29,367 nt of DNA from a virus (IMGVR_UViG_3300020312_000003:1-29367), one strand, 5' to 3'. Counted from the stretch's first letter, positions 3,029 to 11,798 are shown. Program-made: numbers and translations. Notes: generated from the letters alone by a model not told the origin.

Positions 3029-3483
3029 ATGCATAAAATAATAATTACTTAAAGTATTAATATTATTAGTTATTGCATTTATATTGCTATTTTTGGTAAC
3101 ACCAATAAAACACTAATAAGTTTTATGTGCATAAAAAAGTCACTGGTAATTTTTCTATACATATATAAAAAGCTTTATTACTGTACACAATAAAGAAAAC
3201 ATTCATGTATTATTTTGTGATCTAAAGAAATTCTTTTCTTATTATAAGAATTTTCGACACGGATGGGTCGGTAGGGTCACCGGGGGTACTGGTACTTTGC
3301 TAGCAATGTCAACCGTAATTTTATATTTTGTAGTTTTTTGTATGAAAAATGGGGGTAGAACACGAATGGTTCTCCCAGCAGTGTCGTAAGGTATACATGT
3401 ATGTATACCCCGGCAGGTGATACCTTAGTATGATAGTAAATTTCTCATTTGTCAATGGCTATAAATTTTTTTTTATTGACTAA
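3029..3483 (+). other. 455-base gene-free region with clustered inverted repeats, upstream of terS
   Basis: No convincing gene on either strand. The region holds several perfect inverted repeats: 3173-3179/3189-3195 (CTTTATT/AATAAAG), 3228-3235/3246-3253 (AAATTCTT/AAGAATTT), an imperfect hairpin 3353-3361/3369-3376 (GGG-t-AGAAC/GTTCTCCC), and the palindromes at 3387-3427. Two GC-rich islands (about 3255-3300 and 3350-3420) stand out in very AT-rich surroundings; the first contains GGGTC twice and GTACTGGTAC. The position directly before the terminase genes is where cos or pac packaging sites and late promoters are usual in tailed phages. A packaging or late-control site is therefore inferred, not shown. 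Confidence 0.55.
3387..3427 (+). repeat. two mutually exclusive inverted repeats
   Basis: GGTATACAT (3390-3398) and ATGTATACC (3401-3409) form a perfect 9-bp palindrome with a GT spacer. The same left arm, as TAAGGTAT (3387-3394), also matches ATACCTTA (3420-3427) perfectly over 8 bp. As RNA only one pairing can form at a time; as DNA the short palindrome could be an operator for a dimeric repressor. It lies 67 bases upstream of the terS promoter -35 box. Confidence 0.75.
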
Positions 3484-3504
3484 ATGGGTGTCGATTCCTA
3501 TTAT
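3476..3504 (+). promoter_or_regulatory. sigma70-like promoter for the terminase/late operon
   Basis: TTGACT (3476-3481), 17-base spacer, TATTAT (3499-3504). An overlapping TATAAT (3502-3507) would give a 20-base spacer. Transcription would be expected to begin about seven bases after the -10 box, at or next to A3511, the first base of an in-frame ATG of terS. No other box pair this good was found upstream of the packaging genes. Confidence 0.65.
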
Positions 3505-3909
3505 AATAGTATGTCATTAAATTTATTACCAAATAGACAGAGTAAAAGAGAATTGACACCTCAACAAGAGTCTTTTTTAGACCACTTGTTTAAAAATGGT
3601 GGCAACATAACTGATGCTGCATTACAGGCAGGATACTCTCAAGGATCTGTAGGATGGCTCAAGGTATCATTAGCAGAAGAAATTGTAGAAAAGACCAAAT
3701 CTCTACTATCTATGGGAGCATTGAAGGCTGCAAATCAGGTAATCAGGACAATAGACAACCCTACACCAGAGAGGGGAGACGAACTACGCTTAAAAGCTGC
3801 AGAAACTCTACTCAATAGAGTTGGTTTAGGTCGTCAGGAGACTATGAATCATAATGTACAGGCAATTCATGGGGTAGTTTTACTGCCCCCTAAACGACAA
3901 ACAACGTAA
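3484..3909 (+). CDS. terS: terminase small subunit
   Basis: Putative TerS (141 residues from 3484, 132 from ATG 3511), which would recognise phage DNA and present it to TerL for packaging. An N-terminal helix-turn-helix-like segment, LTPQQESFLDHLFKNGGN then ITDAALQAGYS (about residues 22-52), is the classic TerS DNA-binding motif. It is followed by helices (LSMGALKAANQVIRTI, ELRLKAAETLLNRVG) used for ring assembly. It directly precedes terL. Neither ATG has a Shine-Dalgarno sequence. If the promoter at 3476-3504 is real, 3511 is the only start on its transcript and the mRNA would be leaderless; if transcription comes from further upstream, 3484 is possible. The family call is firm; the start is not. 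Confidence 0.85.
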   Translation: MGVDSYYNSMSLNLLPNRQSKRELTPQQESFLDHLFKNGGNITDAALQAGYSQGSVGWLKVSLAEEIVEKTKSLLSMGALKAANQVIRTIDNPTPERGDELRLKAAETLLNRVGLGRQETMNHNVQAIHGVVLLPPKRQTT

Positions 3910-3914
3910 AATGC

Positions 3915-5585
3915 ATGGCAGGAAGACCAAAAAAAGATCCTAACGCACCTAAAGCGAATTATAATCTATCCGTATTTCAAAAAGCACGTAGAGAAACACA
4001 AAAAAGACTACGTGAAGCTAACAAAAAAGCTAATAAACTAGCCATAAAAGCAGGAAATAGGAGAAAATATGCAGAAACTATTAAGAATAGTGCAATTAAA
4101 ATTGAAAAAGCTTTACAAGGCAACGATTCAGCTACAGTTGATGAGGGTGATTTACAAAATCTACCTAATTCTGTACAAAAACTTGTTGATGGTCGCGAAA
4201 TTGTTTTTAAGCCTAACGCAGGTCCTCAAGAAGACTTTTTATCGTCTCCAGAACGTGATGTATTATATGGGGGTGCAGCAGGAGGTGGGAAGAGCTTTAG
4301 CTTACTTGCTGATCCTCTTCGGTATTGCCATAATCCTAATCATAGAGGTCTTCTCCTAAGAAGAACATTAGACGAATTAACAGAACTTATAGATAAGTCA
4401 AGACAATTATATACAAAAGCATTTCCCGGTGCAAAATTTAGGGAGTCAAAATCAACTTGGGTGTTCCCATCAGGAGCAACAATATGGTTTACATACCTAG
4501 ATAAAGACAAAGACGTAACAAGATTTCAAGGTCAGTCTTTTAATTGGATAGGTATAGATGAAATAACACAGTATCCTACATCGTATGTGTGGGATTATCT
4601 CCGTTCTAGATTAAGATCGACAGATAAAGAGCTACAAGACAATTTATATATGAGATGTACTGCCAACCCCGGTGGCGTTGGTGGATGGTGGGTCAAGAAG
4701 ATGTACATAGAACCTTCTGAACCCTTTACGGCTTTCCCAGCGTGTGACATAGATACAGGAACACCTTTACTATGGCCCGATGGGCATGAAAAAGCAAGGC
4801 AACCGTTGTTCTTTCGTAAGTTTATTCCTGCACGGTTGACCGATAATCCCTATCTCATGGCTGATGGTCAATATGAAGCAATGTTGAGATCGCTCCCAGA
4901 AGTTGAACGAAAGAGACTTCTAGAAGGGGATTGGGATGTGGCAGAGGGAGCCGCCTTCCCAGAGTTTTCACGTACTAAGCATGTAGTCGAGCCTTTTGAT
5001 ATGCCGACTAACTGGCCCAGAATACGTGCAGCTGATTATGGATACGCTAGTCCATCTTGTGTTTTATGGGGTGCTATAGATTGGGATAATAATATCTGGG
5101 TTTATAGAGAACTTTACGTAAAACACTTGACTGGAGAGCAATTAGCTGATAAAATACTAGAAGTAGAACAATTAGATCCTACACCTCATTACACTGTCCT
5201 AGATTCTTCCTGTTGGAACAAAACAGGCTTTGGACCTTCTATAGCAGAAACAATGATGAGGACAGGAGTTAGATGGACTCCTGCTGATAGAAATAGGATG
5301 CAAGGTAAAATGGAAGTGCATAGTAGACTCGCTGACGATCCTCGTACAGAAGAACCTAGAGTTCGTATATTTTCTACGTGCAGCAACTTAGTTAAGCAAA
5401 TGGCAGGGATACCTTTGTCTAAAACCAATAGTGAAGATGTAGATACAAAAGCTGAAGATCATGCTTATGATGCTTTGCGTTATATGCTTATGTGTAGAGT
5501 AACAGGATATGCATCTATACATCAAACCTTAGGTCATATTAAAAATCAAGTATTTAAAGTTCAAGATGAGGTCTTTGGTTACTAA
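3915..5585 (+). CDS. terL: terminase large subunit (packaging ATPase/nuclease)
   Basis: TerL, 556 residues, drives ATP-dependent DNA translocation through the portal and cuts the concatemer. Residues 1-70 form a Lys/Arg-rich helical extension. Walker A is GGAAGGGKS (119-127, Lys126), Walker B is WIGIDE (211-216, Asp215/Glu216), and the coupling motif CTANPGG is at 248-254. The RNase H-like nuclease domain has candidate metal-binding acidic residues Asp374 (RAADYG), Asp430 (TVLDSS) and Asp519 (HAYDALRY). All key motifs are intact and the length is normal. The gene starts five bases after terS, again without a clear Shine-Dalgarno, and its stop overlaps the ATG of the next gene. Confidence 0.96.
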   Translation: MAGRPKKDPNAPKANYNLSVFQKARRETQKRLREANKKANKLAIKAGNRRKYAETIKNSAIKIEKALQGNDSATVDEGDLQNLPNSVQKLVDGREIVFKPNAGPQEDFLSSPERDVLYGGAAGGGKSFSLLADPLRYCHNPNHRGLLLRRTLDELTELIDKSRQLYTKAFPGAKFRESKSTWVFPSGATIWFTYLDKDKDVTRFQGQSFNWIGIDEITQYPTSYVWDYLRSRLRSTDKELQDNLYMRCTANPGGVGGWWVKKMYIEPSEPFTAFPACDIDTGTPLLWPDGHEKARQPLFFRKFIPARLTDNPYLMADGQYEAMLRSLPEVERKRLLEGDWDVAEGAAFPEFSRTKHVVEPFDMPTNWPRIRAADYGYASPSCVLWGAIDWDNNIWVYRELYVKHLTGEQLADKILEVEQLDPTPHYTVLDSSCWNKTGFGPSIAETMMRTGVRWTPADRNRMQGKMEVHSRLADDPRTEEPRVRIFSTCSNLVKQMAGIPLSKTNSEDVDTKAEDHAYDALRYMLMCRVTGYASIHQTLGHIKNQVFKVQDEVFGY

Positions 5586-7546
5586 TGGCTTTTTTTAATG
5601 AAAATTTTGAAAAATTAATAGCAGACTCTGGTGAGTTAAGAAAAGATTTCTTAGATAAAACTCCCCTAATCAATCTTGTGGTAAACGCTAATACTTTTAG
5701 CAATAGACAGGCTGTAGGTAAAAAATTAGGTGAATTAGGTTTATCTGAATTAACGTTAGGCGATATAAATAATAATAAAGAAGCAAAAGCAAAATTTGCA
5801 AATGCAATTATTAATGATGGATCTGAAGACGCAAATAAAATACTTCAGTCATTTAAAAAAGTATTTAATGAAGCAGGGTATGTAGCAAAAGGAAATAATA
5901 ATCCTGTTCGACTTCTTTTAGATGATGTTGTTGGAGAAGCAAAAAGAGTAGCAACTTTTCCACAATCAAGAGAAGCTATAAGAAAAATTCCTATTCCGTA
6001 TAAGGATACTACTCCTTACCAAAAAATTGCAAAGGTAGCATCTGGTTTAATAAACAGTAAAGATGTAAAACAAAGAGAAGCAGGGTATCTTACTCTTATG
6101 ATTCTTGTAGGGGGATATAGAGCTTCTGATTTAAAAAATTTAAAATTAGAAAAAATAGATTTTAATACAGGATTTGTTTCTGAGTTACTCATAAAAGATG
6201 CAATAATAAGTGCCACAAAAGGAAATCAAGAACCTGTATATAAAGCAGGTATTTTTACTCCTGATATATTAGATATTATAAAAGAATTTTCTGGGGGTAG
6301 AACAGACGGTTTAGTATTTAAAAATTTAGCTGCGTCACAAAAAATAGCAAATCAAGCTCTAAAAAATGCAAAAATACCTACTGGGTATACTGTCAAAGGT
6401 ATAGAAAAAGGAGGAGATTTTACTTTAGAAGATTTAAGAAAAATGTCTGAAACTCATTTAAGTGCTATGGGAATACTAGAAAATTCTCCTGAAAGAGATT
6501 TTTTAACTTTAAGAGGAAACCCTACTACTGTTAGAGGATATATTGCTACTGGTAATATGGGTAGGTTAGAATCAGCACACGTAAAAAGATTATCTATACA
6601 TTCTCTTTTAAATGGTCAAACTTCTATTGCACAGTATTTAGCCAATATAGGTATAAAAAATCTTAGCAATAGAACAAAAAAATATAATGCTACAGCCGAA
6701 ACATTTAAAGCAACTCCGTGGTTTATACAAGAACAATTAGAAAAAAAATATCCTAATTTACAATTAGGCGATGAATTTATATCAACTAAAATTAATGTAG
6801 TTAGTGATGATTTAGCACAAAAATCTCAAGCTGTTTCTGTAAAAGAGTTAGAGTTACAACAAGCTAATTTAGATATAGAATTAGGAAAAAAATCAAAAGA
6901 AGCTGCCCAAGCTAGACTAGAATCACAAAACGCAGTAAAAGTAGCAAAAGAAAATAAATTGTTAGATCTTGGAGATAAAGTATTTGCTAGTTTAGGTATT
7001 CCTACAGGAAACGAAAATGTAGATGAGTTTCGTGCTTTAGACGAATCTCCTACAGAATTAATATTTGGAGAACCATCTCCTGACGGAACTGCAACAATTG
7101 CAGATTCTTCTGGTGACATGTTTGGAGATATGCAAACAACATTAGCTAGAGGAGCTTCTAAGTTTGGTGCAGCAGGTAGAGCAGGAGCAGGTTTAGCGGC
7201 AGTATTTCAAGGCGAAGGTGATATTGAAAGTGTTGGACAAACAGCATTTGATATAGCAAAAGATGAAGGTATAATTCAAGGTATAAAAAAAGCAGGTCAA
7301 GCCGCTCTTAAGTTAGATCCTCGTGGAAGATTTTTATCGACAGTAGCAGAAGCCGTACCTATAGCATTTGGGATTTCAAAAATATCCCCTAATCAATCGC
7401 TATACCCTGATGAAAACTTTGCTAAACCTATAGGTGAACAGCCTGAAAGAGGAAGTGACGATGCTGACGAATTTGTGTACAGCGAAGACGATAGAACAAC
7501 AGTTAGGGATTTTCCCCAAGATAATTTTTTAAATTTTAATAAATAA
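5585..7546 (+). CDS. tyrosine-recombinase-like domain fused to a coiled-coil/Gly-Ala-rich C-terminus
   Basis: A 653-residue protein between TerL and portal. Residues about 60-330 look like a tyrosine recombinase: Arg179 in GGYRASDLKNLKLEKIDF (box I), Lys212 in ATKGNQEPV (beta-hairpin Lys), Arg285 in LEDLRKMSETHLSAMGI (box II, with the THL..G pattern of Xer/Int proteins), and Tyr319 in NPTTVRGYIATG (nucleophile position). Spacings R-K 33, R-R 106, R-Y 34 fit the family. The usual box II His is Glu282, and the usual His/Trp nine residues before Tyr is Arg310, so the active site is altered. Residues about 405-460 are a charged coiled coil, about 510-600 are Gly/Ala-rich amphipathic helix as in ejected virion proteins, and the last 45 are acidic. 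The motifs are seen; whether it recombines DNA or is a structural or ejection protein is open. Confidence 0.65.
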   Translation: MAFFNENFEKLIADSGELRKDFLDKTPLINLVVNANTFSNRQAVGKKLGELGLSELTLGDINNNKEAKAKFANAIINDGSEDANKILQSFKKVFNEAGYVAKGNNNPVRLLLDDVVGEAKRVATFPQSREAIRKIPIPYKDTTPYQKIAKVASGLINSKDVKQREAGYLTLMILVGGYRASDLKNLKLEKIDFNTGFVSELLIKDAIISATKGNQEPVYKAGIFTPDILDIIKEFSGGRTDGLVFKNLAASQKIANQALKNAKIPTGYTVKGIEKGGDFTLEDLRKMSETHLSAMGILENSPERDFLTLRGNPTTVRGYIATGNMGRLESAHVKRLSIHSLLNGQTSIAQYLANIGIKNLSNRTKKYNATAETFKATPWFIQEQLEKKYPNLQLGDEFISTKINVVSDDLAQKSQAVSVKELELQQANLDIELGKKSKEAAQARLESQNAVKVAKENKLLDLGDKVFASLGIPTGNENVDEFRALDESPTELIFGEPSPDGTATIADSSGDMFGDMQTTLARGASKFGAAGRAGAGLAAVFQGEGDIESVGQTAFDIAKDEGIIQGIKKAGQAALKLDPRGRFLSTVAEAVPIAFGISKISPNQSLYPDENFAKPIGEQPERGSDDADEFVYSEDDRTTVRDFPQDNFLNFNK

Positions 7547-7556
7547 GGAGAGTACA

Positions 7557-7775
7557 ATGCCCGGTAACAATTATAATTATGGTGCTTCTTACATTATGAA
7601 CTCAGATAAAACATCAGTTGATGATGCTATGGGTTCTAATGTTTTAACTAGAGAACCACTTGAGTTTGATACTAGAGCATCTAGAGATGTGCTTACAGTA
7701 GATATGCCTAAAAAGCAAACTAAAACTACTGTAGACAATTCTTTGTTTGCAATGGCTAACGAAAAAGACTACTAG
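7557..7775 (+). CDS. small hypothetical protein before portal
   Basis: A 72-residue polar protein beginning MPGNNYNYGASYIMN, with no domain I recognise, no signal peptide and no membrane helix. It has a strong Shine-Dalgarno (AAGGAG at 7547-7552, six bases before ATG). Ten bases separate it from the portal gene. Its place between the recombinase-like virion-locus gene and the portal suggests a minor virion or assembly role, which is inference from position only. Confidence 0.65.
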   Translation: MPGNNYNYGASYIMNSDKTSVDDAMGSNVLTREPLEFDTRASRDVLTVDMPKKQTKTTVDNSLFAMANEKDY

Positions 7776-7785
7776 AAAGTAGGTT

Positions 7786-9900
7786 ATGTCTGATAATTTT
7801 TTAGAACCTGCAGACGATACAGTTGTACCTGTCGTAGAACCTAGTGAAAGTATGCCCGGACTTATTGGGTATATTAAAAACAAGCTAGAGGAAGCAGAAC
7901 ACAATAGGCTATCCCATGAAAAGGATTGGCTACAAGCGTATAAAAACTTTAGGGGTATATACGACAGCACTACTGTATACCGTGATTCTGAACGTTCTAA
8001 AGTATTTATCAAGATAACTAAAACTAAAGTTCTAGCAGCATACGGTCAAATAGTTGACATATTATTTTCTAATAAAAAATTTCCTATAGTTGTTGAGCCT
8101 ACTCCTATACCAGAAGGTATAGCAGAGTTTGCACATTTACAGACACCTATAGATCAAGTCGTACAACCACCAAAACAAGACCCATATGGTTTTCAAGGCG
8201 ATGGCAGAAATATAGCTCCCGGTGCTATGGAAGCATCTCCATCTATGGATATATTAGGTGGTTTGGAAGATCAGTTTGCAAATGCACCTATAGCAGAAGG
8301 ACCTGCTAAAGCAGGAGAACCACAAATTAGTCCTGCACAAAAGGCAGCTCTTAAATTAGAGAAATACATACATGATCAGCTTTTAGATACTAGTGCAGTT
8401 AATGTATTAAGAAATGCAATATTTGAGGCCGCACTATTAGGAACTGGAATTGTAAAAGGTCCTTTTAACTTTCATAAAAGAATACATAAATGGGAACGTG
8501 GAGAAAACGGTCAAAGAAATTATGTTCCATATGAAAAGACTGTGCCTAGACTTGAACATGTTTCTATATGGGATTTTCATCCTGATCCTAATGCAACAAG
8601 CATGGATGACTGCGAATATGTTATTCAACGTCATAGATTAAACAAACAACAAATGAGAGGTTTAATCAGTATACCTCATTTCTACAAAGAAGCTATAGAA
8701 GATTGTATAGCTATGGGTCCTAATTATAATAATAAATATTATGAAGACACTATACGTAGAGAAGAAAACCAAACAACATACGAAGAAAATAGATATGAAG
8801 TATTAGAATATTGGGGTGTATTAGACGCTAAGTTAGCTAGAGAAGTGGGTATGGAAATACCTGAAGATCTTAGTGAATTAGACCAAGTGCAGGTTAATAT
8901 ATGGGTATCAGGTATGCACATACTAAGATGTGTATTAAATCCTTTTACACCATCTAGAATACCATATCAAGTAATACCATACGAAATCAATCCTTATCAA
9001 TTGTGGGGTGTAGGTGTTGCAGAAAATATGGAAGATGCTCAAATGTTAATGAATGGTCATGTAAGAATGGCTATAGATAACTTGACATTAGCAGGAAATT
9101 TAGTATTTGATGTAGATGAAGCAAGTTTAGTTCCGGGACAAAACATGGACATCTTTCCCGGAAAGATATTTAGAAGACAGTCAGGTGTAACAGGAACAGC
9201 TATAAATGGTTTAAAGTTTCCTAATACTGCACCAGAAAATTTACAAATGTATCAAATAAGTCGTCAGTTAGCAGACGAAGAAACAGGGTTGCCATCAATT
9301 ATGCACGGACAAACTGGAGTATCTGGAACAGGAAGAACAGCTTCTGGATTATCTATGTTGTTAGGGGGTGCATCTTTATCACTTAAAACAGTTATAAAAA
9401 ATATTGATGACCACCTGTTAAAACCTTTGGGTGAAGCTATGTTTCAATGGAACATGCAATTTAATGAACAAGCTCCTGATATACAAGGAGACTTAGAAAT
9501 AAAACCTAGAGGTGTTTCTGCAGTAATGCAAAAAGAAGTAAGAAGTCAACGTCTTACAGCATTATTACAAACTGTAGGAAATCCAATGCTAGCACCGTTT
9601 ATAAAAATACCTAACTTAATTAGAGAGTTAGCTATATCTCAAGATATAGATCCTGATAGTCTAGTTAATGATGTAAACGAAGCACAAATTTTTGCACAAA
9701 TGTTAAAAGGACTACAAGATGCTCAACAAGAAACAAGCCAGCAAGGTCAGCCCAATAGTAACCAACGAGAAAGCGTGGATCGCTCTGGAGGAGTTCCTAG
9801 AGGAGCAAATCAAAATAGCCCTCAAGGGGCTGGTGGTGGCACAATCGGCACAGGACCTGTACCGTCTGCAGGGGAAAGTGGCTTCACTGGAAATGATTAA
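7786..9900 (+). CDS. portal (head-tail connector) protein
   Basis: The 704-residue portal forms the dodecameric ring through which DNA is packaged and ejected. Supporting features: an N-terminal KDWLQAYKNFRGIYDS segment, RSKVFIKITKTKVLAAYGQIVDILF (about residues 66-90), the ALLGTGIVKGPF core (about 219-230), RLEHVSIWDFHPDPNATSMDDCEYVI (about 252-277) typical of P22/SU10/N4-type podovirus portals, and QTGVSGTGRTASGLSMLLGGA (about 507-527). The position after TerL and before the scaffold/MCP agrees. From about residue 645 the protein becomes Gln-, Gly- and Pro-rich and disordered, and this tail is encoded by the same bases as another gene in a second frame. Confidence 0.92.
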   Translation: MSDNFLEPADDTVVPVVEPSESMPGLIGYIKNKLEEAEHNRLSHEKDWLQAYKNFRGIYDSTTVYRDSERSKVFIKITKTKVLAAYGQIVDILFSNKKFPIVVEPTPIPEGIAEFAHLQTPIDQVVQPPKQDPYGFQGDGRNIAPGAMEASPSMDILGGLEDQFANAPIAEGPAKAGEPQISPAQKAALKLEKYIHDQLLDTSAVNVLRNAIFEAALLGTGIVKGPFNFHKRIHKWERGENGQRNYVPYEKTVPRLEHVSIWDFHPDPNATSMDDCEYVIQRHRLNKQQMRGLISIPHFYKEAIEDCIAMGPNYNNKYYEDTIRREENQTTYEENRYEVLEYWGVLDAKLAREVGMEIPEDLSELDQVQVNIWVSGMHILRCVLNPFTPSRIPYQVIPYEINPYQLWGVGVAENMEDAQMLMNGHVRMAIDNLTLAGNLVFDVDEASLVPGQNMDIFPGKIFRRQSGVTGTAINGLKFPNTAPENLQMYQISRQLADEETGLPSIMHGQTGVSGTGRTASGLSMLLGGASLSLKTVIKNIDDHLLKPLGEAMFQWNMQFNEQAPDIQGDLEIKPRGVSAVMQKEVRSQRLTALLQTVGNPMLAPFIKIPNLIRELAISQDIDPDSLVNDVNEAQIFAQMLKGLQDAQQETSQQGQPNSNQRESVDRSGGVPRGANQNSPQGAGGGTIGTGPVPSAGESGFTGND
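9706..9711 (+). promoter_or_regulatory. ribosome binding site inside portal gene
   Basis: AAAGGA at 9706-9711 lies within the portal reading frame and sits seven bases before ATG 9719, supporting an independent start for the overlapping gene in the +1 frame. Confidence 0.7.
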
Positions 9901-9955
9901 AGGTTTAAAATTAGATTACTATGCAGCTATGAAAGTAAAACAAAATAATGAGTGA
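9719..9955 (+). CDS. small coiled-coil protein overprinted on the portal 3' end
   Basis: A 78-residue protein in the +1 frame relative to portal, sharing 182 bases with it and then running on to 9955. It has a good internal Shine-Dalgarno. Residues about 17-72 read as an amphipathic helix with regular heptads: AWIALEEFLEEQIKIALKG, then SAQDLYRLQGKVASLEMIKG. This matches the small 'W..l...L......L......Q G....L' proteins often encoded right after podovirus portals, which is why I regard this frame as the constrained one and the portal's Gln/Gly-rich tail as the secondary frame. The stop overlaps the start of the next gene by 8 bases. Confidence 0.8.
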   Translation: MLNKKQASKVSPIVTNEKAWIALEEFLEEQIKIALKGLVVAQSAQDLYRLQGKVASLEMIKGLKLDYYAAMKVKQNNE

Positions 9956-11798
9956 ATGGCGAACATTTATAACTGATAACTATACTTTTGATAAAAACAA
10001 AGGGTATGTTTTAGATACTAGTAGACCTATGCCTAAATTTTTACAAAGGTTAAATAAAGGTATAAATAGAACCTTTAGAACTCTTAGAACATCTAATCCA
10101 TTTAATTTAACTACACCTAGTGTACCTAGAACTGGAGAGGTATCTCAAGTAACTGGTGGTAGTAGTGATAATAAAAGTCCATATGAAAAGATTGATGCAA
10201 CTGATGGTGGTTCTTTTATTAATAGGATGAAAAATATATCTACTTCTCCTTCAGTAACAGGAAGTAGTTATTCTATAGCTACTGGTAAACAAATGCAAGG
10301 AACTTTAGGTGTAGCAGATTTAATGTTAGGGCCTTTAGCAGGACCTGCAAAACTTTTAAGTGGTTTGACAAAAGCACATTTAGAAACTATATCTGCAAGA
10401 GCAGCATTAGGCGATGAAGGATTTGCCATAGGAATGTATGATGGTAGACCTATAGGTTTAAGTAAAGGATTTTTAGGATATCAATTAACTGGTGTTTATC
10501 CTGAAGATCAAAGAAGAAACATTATAAATGATTTATTACAGTTATCTCAACAAGGAAAAGGTTCAGGATTTTTAGGTAGTCAATATACAAAGTTTGGCAT
10601 GGGGGATGCAGGTTTTGATAAAGAATTTACAAAATCTATAAATGAATCTAATTTATCTACTAACTTAAAAAATAGATTATTAGATACATCTACAAAAATA
10701 AAAACTTCAGATCAATATGTAAAAGAAACAGAAAAAACTGGTAAAGTTAGTTCTGGTCAAAGTTTTGATACGCTTAGACAAGAAAAACAAAAAACTAAAG
10801 AGGGAGCAGAAGGATTTACTGGTGAGTTTGGATTTAATGATGGGGGTTTTATAGGAGGTCCTCCTAGTCAATATTCTCCTCAAAAAACAATAGCTGATGA
10901 TGTTAACTTTGAAGCTAGAGAAGGTGGTTTTGTTATAAATGCACCTGCTGTTCAAAAATTTGGAGAAAAAAAATTAAATGCCATGTACAATAAGGCAAAA
11001 AAACAAAGCAAGTCTCCTAGTTTAGCTATGGGTGGAGAAGTACCCATAAAAATATCTAAAGGAGAAATGTACATACCACCAGAACATGTAAATGCTATGG
11101 GGGGCATGGAGTTTTTAAAAAAAATAAATGATCAAGGTAAACCCACTGTTACTGCGTTAAATAAAGGGTTTATGAACGGATATAACCAAGGAGATGAAGT
11201 ACAAGGAAATGAAGTTGATATAGGTTACGAAATTCCTTCTGATGACTTTATGTCTAAATTAAAAGATTTTAATAAAAAGAAAAGAAATAGATCAGAACGA
11301 GATAATTTTATATTAAGCCTATCAGATGAAGAAGCTTTGTCTTTAGCTTTTTTAACTGAAACTGTTGCATCAAAAGCATCTTTAACAACTATGCAAAAAA
11401 TTGGTGATGTAATACTTAATAGAGTTAATGATCAACAATTTGAATTTAAAAACTTAAAATCAATTAAAGATGTTTTGTTACAAAGAACTAATAGGGGAAA
11501 GGGCAGTAAAATGGTTGCATTTGATGGTCTAGAACCTAGTATTTTACAAGCAAGAATATCAGAAATTTTATCAGGAAAAGCTCCAGACGCTTTAGAAAAA
11601 ACTTACACAGCCGCAATAAATACTTTGGACACAGAGCCTGATTTAGAACAATACAGATTACCTTCACATATATTATATTATAAAAAACCCGGAGTTGGAG
11701 GATCTTCATGGCATGACAAATCGCCACTTTTAGCTCCGTTAATAGATGATGAAGGACACACTTTTTACGGAAGGTATATGACAGAGGAATTTCCGTAA
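9948..11798 (+). CDS. virion protein with C-terminal SleB-like cell wall hydrolase domain
   Basis: A 616-residue probable virion protein. The N-terminal 300 residues are low in recognisable motifs (Ser/Thr/Gly-rich, then helical). The middle (about 295-415) contains two similar blocks, GGFVINAPAVQKFGEKKLNAM and GGEVPIKISKGEMYIPPEHV followed by NAMGGMEFLKKIN, a repeat type common in marine phage structural proteins. The C-terminus (about 460-616) resembles the Hydrolase_2/SleB lytic-transglycosylase fold: Glu471 in LAFLTETVAS as the likely catalytic acid, then IGDVILNRVND, and a terminal HTFYGRYM. It would open the peptidoglycan during genome entry. A separate T4-type endolysin at 16290 serves lysis, so this one is most likely virion-borne. 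Confidence 0.75.
   Translation: MSEWRTFITDNYTFDKNKGYVLDTSRPMPKFLQRLNKGINRTFRTLRTSNPFNLTTPSVPRTGEVSQVTGGSSDNKSPYEKIDATDGGSFINRMKNISTSPSVTGSSYSIATGKQMQGTLGVADLMLGPLAGPAKLLSGLTKAHLETISARAALGDEGFAIGMYDGRPIGLSKGFLGYQLTGVYPEDQRRNIINDLLQLSQQGKGSGFLGSQYTKFGMGDAGFDKEFTKSINESNLSTNLKNRLLDTSTKIKTSDQYVKETEKTGKVSSGQSFDTLRQEKQKTKEGAEGFTGEFGFNDGGFIGGPPSQYSPQKTIADDVNFEAREGGFVINAPAVQKFGEKKLNAMYNKAKKQSKSPSLAMGGEVPIKISKGEMYIPPEHVNAMGGMEFLKKINDQGKPTVTALNKGFMNGYNQGDEVQGNEVDIGYEIPSDDFMSKLKDFNKKKRNRSERDNFILSLSDEEALSLAFLTETVASKASLTTMQKIGDVILNRVNDQQFEFKNLKSIKDVLLQRTNRGKGSKMVAFDGLEPSILQARISEILSGKAPDALEKTYTAAINTLDTEPDLEQYRLPSHILYYKKPGVGGSSWHDKSPLLAPLIDDEGHTFYGRYMTEEFP

Follow-up and report, generated by a model that had tools for sequence, protein, structure and literature searches.

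A hypervariable gene of the tyrosine recombinase superfamily between the terminase and portal genes of uncultured marine phages

Tyrosine recombinases are normally taken as markers of lysogeny. What is a protein of this kind doing between the large terminase subunit (TerL) and portal genes of a marine phage? The question is raised by X (P0001), a 653-amino-acid (aa) protein encoded in IMGVR_UViG_3300020312_000003:1-29367, a stretch of 29,367 nucleotides (nt) that was analysed at its full length and is called the window here. A sequence-only reading of this DNA had noticed recombinase-like residues in X and offered two interpretations, a recombinase packaged and injected with the genome or a structural protein that had taken over a recombinase fold. 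Below we show that X is a hypervariable locus with cassette-like allele exchange between conserved genes, give well-supported grounds for its place in the tyrosine recombinase superfamily, and tentatively propose that it acts from the virion. The gene, which lies between TerL and portal as the sequence-only reading had it, and its neighbours are:

5585..7546, + strand: X, 653-aa tyrosine recombinase with a C-terminal extension; intact open reading frame (ORF), assigned by Pfam, PHROG, the family profile, AlphaFold, and Foldseek/VIA
3915..5585, + strand: TerL, left conserved flank of the swapped cassette (PHROG_979; median 80% identity in the clade)
7557..7775, + strand: 72-aa ORF between X and portal (median 63% identity, 130 loci)
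7786..9900, + strand: portal, right conserved flank (PF23899, PHROG_332; nearest isolate HTVC033P, ~52%)

Fold and catalytic residues of X

Residues 1–345 of X are well supported, by sequence profiles and by modelling, as a core-binding plus catalytic module of the tyrosine recombinase superfamily. Searched alone, P0001 matches Pfam Phage_integrase with E 0.0015 (18.8 bits, below the gathering score of 27.1) and the PHROG_216 integrase family with E 0.0094; the single-sequence search of IMG/VR yields one sequence-identical copy and one other allele only (82% identical), and a tblastn search of 50,697 phage records, with four distinct X alleles as queries, gives zero matches. Homologue sampling was guided by synteny: contigs were fetched via TerL and portal, and the ORF at the position of X was taken. 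The uncultured relatives each carry an ORF of 545–792 aa there, and these ORFs form a single BLAST-connected family; the resulting set holds 119 X homologues, most of them only 11–25% identical to P0001. A profile built from 90 homologues matches the solved structures of XerA (6.7e-11) and XerD (7.9e-8), and also XerH and lambda Int, the match covering lambda Int 71–343. Among the family members, PF00589 is matched by 21 of 76, PHROG_1 by 22, and PHROG_216 by 14; no protelomerase profile is seen among the X-family matches at E ≤ 0.01, palindromes having been scanned only roughly.

The AlphaFold model of P0001, made with the family alignment, has a predicted local distance difference test score (pLDDT) of ~90 at residues 1–470 and of <50 for most of 481–653. 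Its best PDB matches in Foldseek and VIA are Xer, Tn1549 Int, lambda Int, Cre, Flp, and topoisomerase IB; the best VIA match is Xer 4a8e (Z 10.5, residues 132–352), the VIA alignments begin at residue 12–26, and a search of a viral structure library puts phage integrases on top. Allele L121, 16% identical to P0001, has a similar predicted fold, with recombinases filling the 32 best VIA rows, at a lower VIA Z (9.4) and with a weak full-length Foldseek score. The likeness to recombinases proposed by the sequence-only reading is hence beyond chance, and two of the checks it had suggested, a structural search and a profile hidden Markov model search for integrases, agree with it. The parts of the module and its candidate active-site residues are:

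5585..5974, + strand: residues 1–130, all-helical N-terminal part, resembling the core-binding domain of Tn1549 Int, lambda Int, and Cre; pLDDT mostly >90
5975..6619, + strand: residues 131–345, catalytic (CAT) domain; PF00589 at 168–296, VIA match to 4a8e
6119..6121, + strand: Arg179, box I Arg (GYRASD); kept in 118/119 homologues, the remaining one a gap
6218..6220, + strand: Lys212, candidate beta-hairpin Lys; a hairpin Lys in 118/119, exact MAFFT column uncertain
6428..6430, + strand: Glu282, at the HxxR His position; in the family mostly S/T/Y/K/E, never His
6437..6439, + strand: Arg285, box II Arg; invariant, 119/119
6512..6514, + strand: Arg310, second box II His/Trp position; His in 77/119, Arg in 42/119 (Arg in the window)
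6539..6541, + strand: Tyr319, candidate nucleophile; Tyr 6–21 residues past position 310 in 118/119

The mean column identity of the X alignment is 12–14%, and the catalytic residues stand out against this background. All six residue assignments of the sequence-only reading (R179, K212, E282, R285, R310, and Y319) are correct, and R179, R285, and Y319 do not vary freely among homologues. The residue at +3 from the box I Arg, D182 in the window, is Asp or Glu in 73 of 119 sequences, and the hairpin Lys of L121, K243, is at least 90% conserved in A5. An apparent loss of Tyr319 (replaced by Met) in 23 sequences is an alignment offset, the Tyr being located 3–4 residues further on.

At the HxxR His position, none of the 119 homologues has His; 14 have Lys, the others mostly Ser, Thr, or Tyr, and the window has Glu. 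Recombinases are known to differ at this position, hence the missing His lowers confidence in activity and does not exclude X from the superfamily. The earlier claim that two His positions are changed thus stands for residue 282, throughout the family; at residue 310 it describes the window and the other Arg alleles, while His is the more frequent residue there. Within alleles, the ratio of non-synonymous to synonymous substitutions (dN/dS) is 0.02–0.42 in the catalytic domain, compared to 0.07–0.73 in the C-terminal part, indicating purifying selection on the catalytic domain.

These residues bear on the second of the two original interpretations, taken here to mean that X has kept the recombinase fold but lost catalysis and now serves as a structural or DNA-binding protein. 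SPbeta MrpR is a phage protein of this kind, with a tyrosine-recombinase fold outside the classical integrase role, and the family-wide absence of the HxxR His, Arg at position 310 in 42 of 119 homologues, and the long coil and tail of X would all fit such a fate; however, MrpR is a repressor that has lost both catalytic Args (PMC10516654), whereas X retains both in essentially every allele, together with the Tyr, and its catalytic domain is under purifying selection. A dead structural protein is therefore disfavoured and, in our estimate, quite unlikely. Catalysis by X is probably retained, given that R179, R285, His or Arg at 310, and the downstream Tyr are conserved in nearly all homologues.

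Cassette-like exchange of X alleles

X occurs in all 96 distinct contigs that have both TerL and portal, all from one uncultured marine clade related to HMO-2011 and HTVC103P, and always adjoins TerL. In the window, its ATG overlaps the TerL stop codon (TAATG), and in all but one of the 96 contigs it starts 0–6 nt past that stop. A search begun from the L121 allele found X at this locus only. None of the 80 loci of the HTVC033P-type sister clade has X, and no X homologue lies between terL and portal in eight isolate or reference records (HTVC033P, HMO-2011, CRP-2, Aeromonas 1233, CHOED, RHph_N3_13, phiM6, and ctYwJ313).

The most striking property of X, absent from the sequence-only reading, is its hypervariability. 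The median identity to the window across loci is 80% for TerL, 63% for the 72-aa ORF, and 76% for portal; by BLAST, X is detected in 27 loci only, with a median of 28%, and is mostly unalignable, which makes it by far the most divergent of the packaging and head genes compared. Phage pairs with 96–99% identical TerL and portal can hold unrelated X. Between such pairs, DNA identity runs through TerL, usually ends a few nt from the X start codon, and returns at the X stop or within the C-terminal region of X. X is thus a hypervariable locus at which alleles are exchanged, cassette-like, between conserved genes.

The C-terminal region of X comprises two parts:

6806..6991, + strand: residues 408–469, a single 62-residue helix, coiled-coil-like (AlphaFold)
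6992..7543, + strand: residues 470–653, Gly/Ala-rich low-confidence tail ending in DNFLNFNK (pLDDT mostly <50)

The C-tails fall into a few types (GSFLN, SGGFINK, GFISYTP) that are common to otherwise different alleles; GGFI/GGFV tails end six X alleles, and the GGFI motif is also present in a putative virion protein encoded after portal. Similarity of the last 70 aa of X correlates with flank identity (rho 0.40) more strongly than similarity of the core (rho 0.11), and among allele pairs whose cores are unrelated, the proportion having similar tails climbs from 0 to 30% as the flanks become closer. The C-terminal region is hence separable, and its similarity follows that of the flanking virion genes more closely than core similarity does. 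A C-terminal profile, run against the other ORFs of the loci in search of a shared virion domain, finds X alone above noise.

Alleles are cleanly replaced where the flanks are almost identical, the breakpoints falling at the start of X and close to its end. This is what would be expected of a selfish or competitive locus, whose allele would target co-infecting phages that carry a different one and be copied into them, homing-like but with a recombinase. The 100% occupancy and the backbone-tied tails suggest a fixed function instead, and the exchange requires no more than ordinary homologous recombination within the flanks; we regard a selfish locus as very unlikely.

Two allele pairs, L056 with L078 and L104 with L152, share the same core (84–93% identical) on diverged backbones (flanks ~84–86%); in L056 and L078, the C-tail is entirely different despite the same core. 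Third-position GC (GC3) of the clade TerL genes (L012–L168; ~78–94% protein identity to the window TerL) spans 25–57%, which suggests hosts of very different base composition. In a host-tracking test, same-core pairs have closer backbone GC3, a result that is confounded and only suggestive.

Lifestyle, and the proposed DNA target and mode of action

The window belongs to a phage genome of ~56 kb, of which the sister contig G001 supplies the remainder (99.8–99.9% identity across the full window bar ~50 bp). By portal, the phage is kin of the HTVC033P/HTVC103P-type pelagiphages and the HMO-2011 group, with ~45–53% identity to the closest isolates. G001 encodes a primase, a DnaB-like helicase, DNA polymerase I (Pol I), a Cas4-type exonuclease, a ribonucleotide reductase (RNR), and a T7-type endonuclease I. 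The last of these, at L169:12541-12924 (G001; PF05367, E 5e-40), is consistent with a lytic lifestyle. No anti-phage defence profile (PADLOC) is matched. The assembly end of the sister contig was considered as a physical genome end and ruled out, the distances from X to the contig end differing widely among other long contigs.

X could be the lysogeny integrase of the clade, relocated from the early region to the late operon and exchanged in the way of other integrase modules. A canonical integrase is encoded away from this locus in HMO-2011, CRP-2, and ctYwJ313, and CRP-3, with an early integrase of the HMO-2011/CRP type, integrates into tRNA-Met (PMC6918029). These integrases are, like X, of the tyrosine family and from phages with a related head/packaging module; unlike X, they are ~300 aa long, encoded in the early region, and canonical in PF00589 (E 1e-21). 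The clade records and long contigs checked have no PF00589 match other than X, although a divergent second recombinase could escape the profile, as several X alleles do; a survey of HTVC103P-type genomes likewise reports no integrase (PMC8528129). Swapping of integrase specificity would moreover account for the diversity. However, there is no room for a phage attachment site (attP), with 0–6 nt to TerL in nearly all contigs and, in the window, the next ORF ~10 nt past X. The window contains no tRNA-like attP; there is no strong signal of an attP or a constrained DNA element inside X (the top-scoring windows, near the C-tail, fit recent exchange), and no recognisable repressor in G001; two scans of 84,980 bacterial and archaeal genomes (exact 7–8-residue peptides; one genome per species) reveal no prophage with this TerL. 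Given the lack of space for attP, and with no prophage found by the exact-peptide scans, membership of X among temperate-phage integrases is not supported, and a relocated lysogeny integrase is unlikely.

An active late recombinase might also work outside the virion, resolving dimers, concatemers, or branched replication intermediates before packaging, in the manner of XerCD and Cre or of the genome processing proposed for baculovirus VLF-1. The position of X next to TerL and near portal, its kept catalytic residues, and the lytic-looking genome with its T7-type endonuclease I, Pol I, DnaB-like helicase, and RNR all agree with this, and the lytic phages phiCbK and Lacusarx carry tyrosine recombinases too (PMC3556154, PMC5648845). 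Yet phages whose packaging genes are nearly identical would not be expected to swap the entire enzyme if its function were housekeeping, sister phages manage without X, and a scan of seven same-allele genomes, covering partial contigs and repeats with perfect 8-nt arms, shows no lox/dif-like inverted repeat in three or more of them. We hold such a role to be possible, if somewhat unlikely.

The reading that we rank first, tentatively, is that X is a genuine tyrosine site-specific recombinase, a fixed core gene of the late packaging/head operon, that is virion-borne and ejected onto an allele-specific target. It is placed first because a recombinase expressed late is unlikely to carry out classical integration in that same cell and because a housekeeping packaging role leaves the allele swapping unexplained. 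X is probably made late and carried in the virion; its packaging and injection are plausible in view of the late-operon position, the clade-wide position lock, the added C-terminal region, and the tails that track virion genes. X would be translated late, coupled to TerL, and its C-terminal coil and tail would bring it into the virion at assembly; ejected with the genome, it could act at once in the next cell via a covalent Tyr–DNA intermediate, the Tyr-mediated cleavage and strand transfer taking place on a DNA target that would differ between alleles. The diversity of X may then be maintained by variation of the target, be it the host chromosome, a resident element, or a competing phage.

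Three observations weigh against virion-borne action on such a target. A target site on the phage genome was searched for, and none was found; the co-variation of tail and flank may partly be linkage, as the first 70 aa show a weaker trend; and the window allele, with Glu at HxxR and Arg at 310, is less certain to be active than the His alleles. A more specific form of the virion-borne reading, a polymorphic system of injected recombinases with a swappable module and a virion-targeting tail, acting at entry on DNA that is non-self or the host's own, be it a chromosomal site, a plasmid, a resident prophage, or a competitor phage, and kept diverse by selection, is rather unlikely, while still worth considering.

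The closest precedent for a virion-borne member of the family is baculovirus VLF-1, a protein of the tyrosine recombinase family located at the nucleocapsid end (PMC6669607, PMC3649998). Like X, it is a recombinase-family protein of a DNA virus; it is tied to capsid formation and genome processing, and its Tyr is required for infectious virus. In contrast to X, VLF-1 is conserved, with no report of its alleles being swapped, and comes from an unrelated virus and host. A first literature search, with most subscription journals outside its reach, yielded no virion-associated tyrosine recombinase of a phage.

Surroundings of the locus and significance

One further packaging gene lies upstream of TerL:

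3484..3909, + strand: terminase small subunit (Pfam Terminase_2, E 3e-5, slightly under the gathering score)

About 75 nt upstream of it, at 3390–3409, is a non-coding, near-perfect palindrome, GGTATACATGTATGTATACC, that could serve packaging or regulation. The 72-aa ORF downstream of X (7557–7775), whose sequence starts MPGNNYNYGASYIMNSDKTSVDD, is found clade-wide. The putative virion protein 3' of portal (9948–11798) has tape-measure-like GGFI/EGGFVI motifs and a weak C-terminal match to a cell-wall hydrolase (Hydrolase_2, E 0.007); it diverges fast too, with a median coverage of BLAST matches of 0.23.

XerA, XerD, XerH, and the lambda-type integrases (PF00589) share with X the core-binding and catalytic fold and the order of the active-site residues: the Arg of box I, a Lys that in X is a candidate for the hairpin position, the Arg of box II, His (Arg in some X alleles), and Tyr. 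X differs from them in that the HxxR His is never present, and in its C-terminal extension of ~300 residues, its late packaging locus, and its extreme allelic swapping. phiCbK gp143 and the Lacusarx XerC/XerD are, like X, tyrosine recombinases of supposedly lytic phages; a terL–portal location, a C-terminal extension, and allele swapping are not described there. The tyrosine recombinase superfamily is already known; what is new in X is where it is encoded, the tail fused to it, and the swapping of its alleles.

Here, a tyrosine recombinase is a fixed late gene of a lytic-looking group of marine phages. If X is indeed virion-borne, it would be the phage counterpart of baculovirus VLF-1, and phages could deliver a site-specific recombinase with the genome. 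For annotation, a search with the X profile would reveal a recombinase in a clade for which the HTVC103P-type survey lists none. The many natural X alleles may also be a source of recombinases with unknown specificities.

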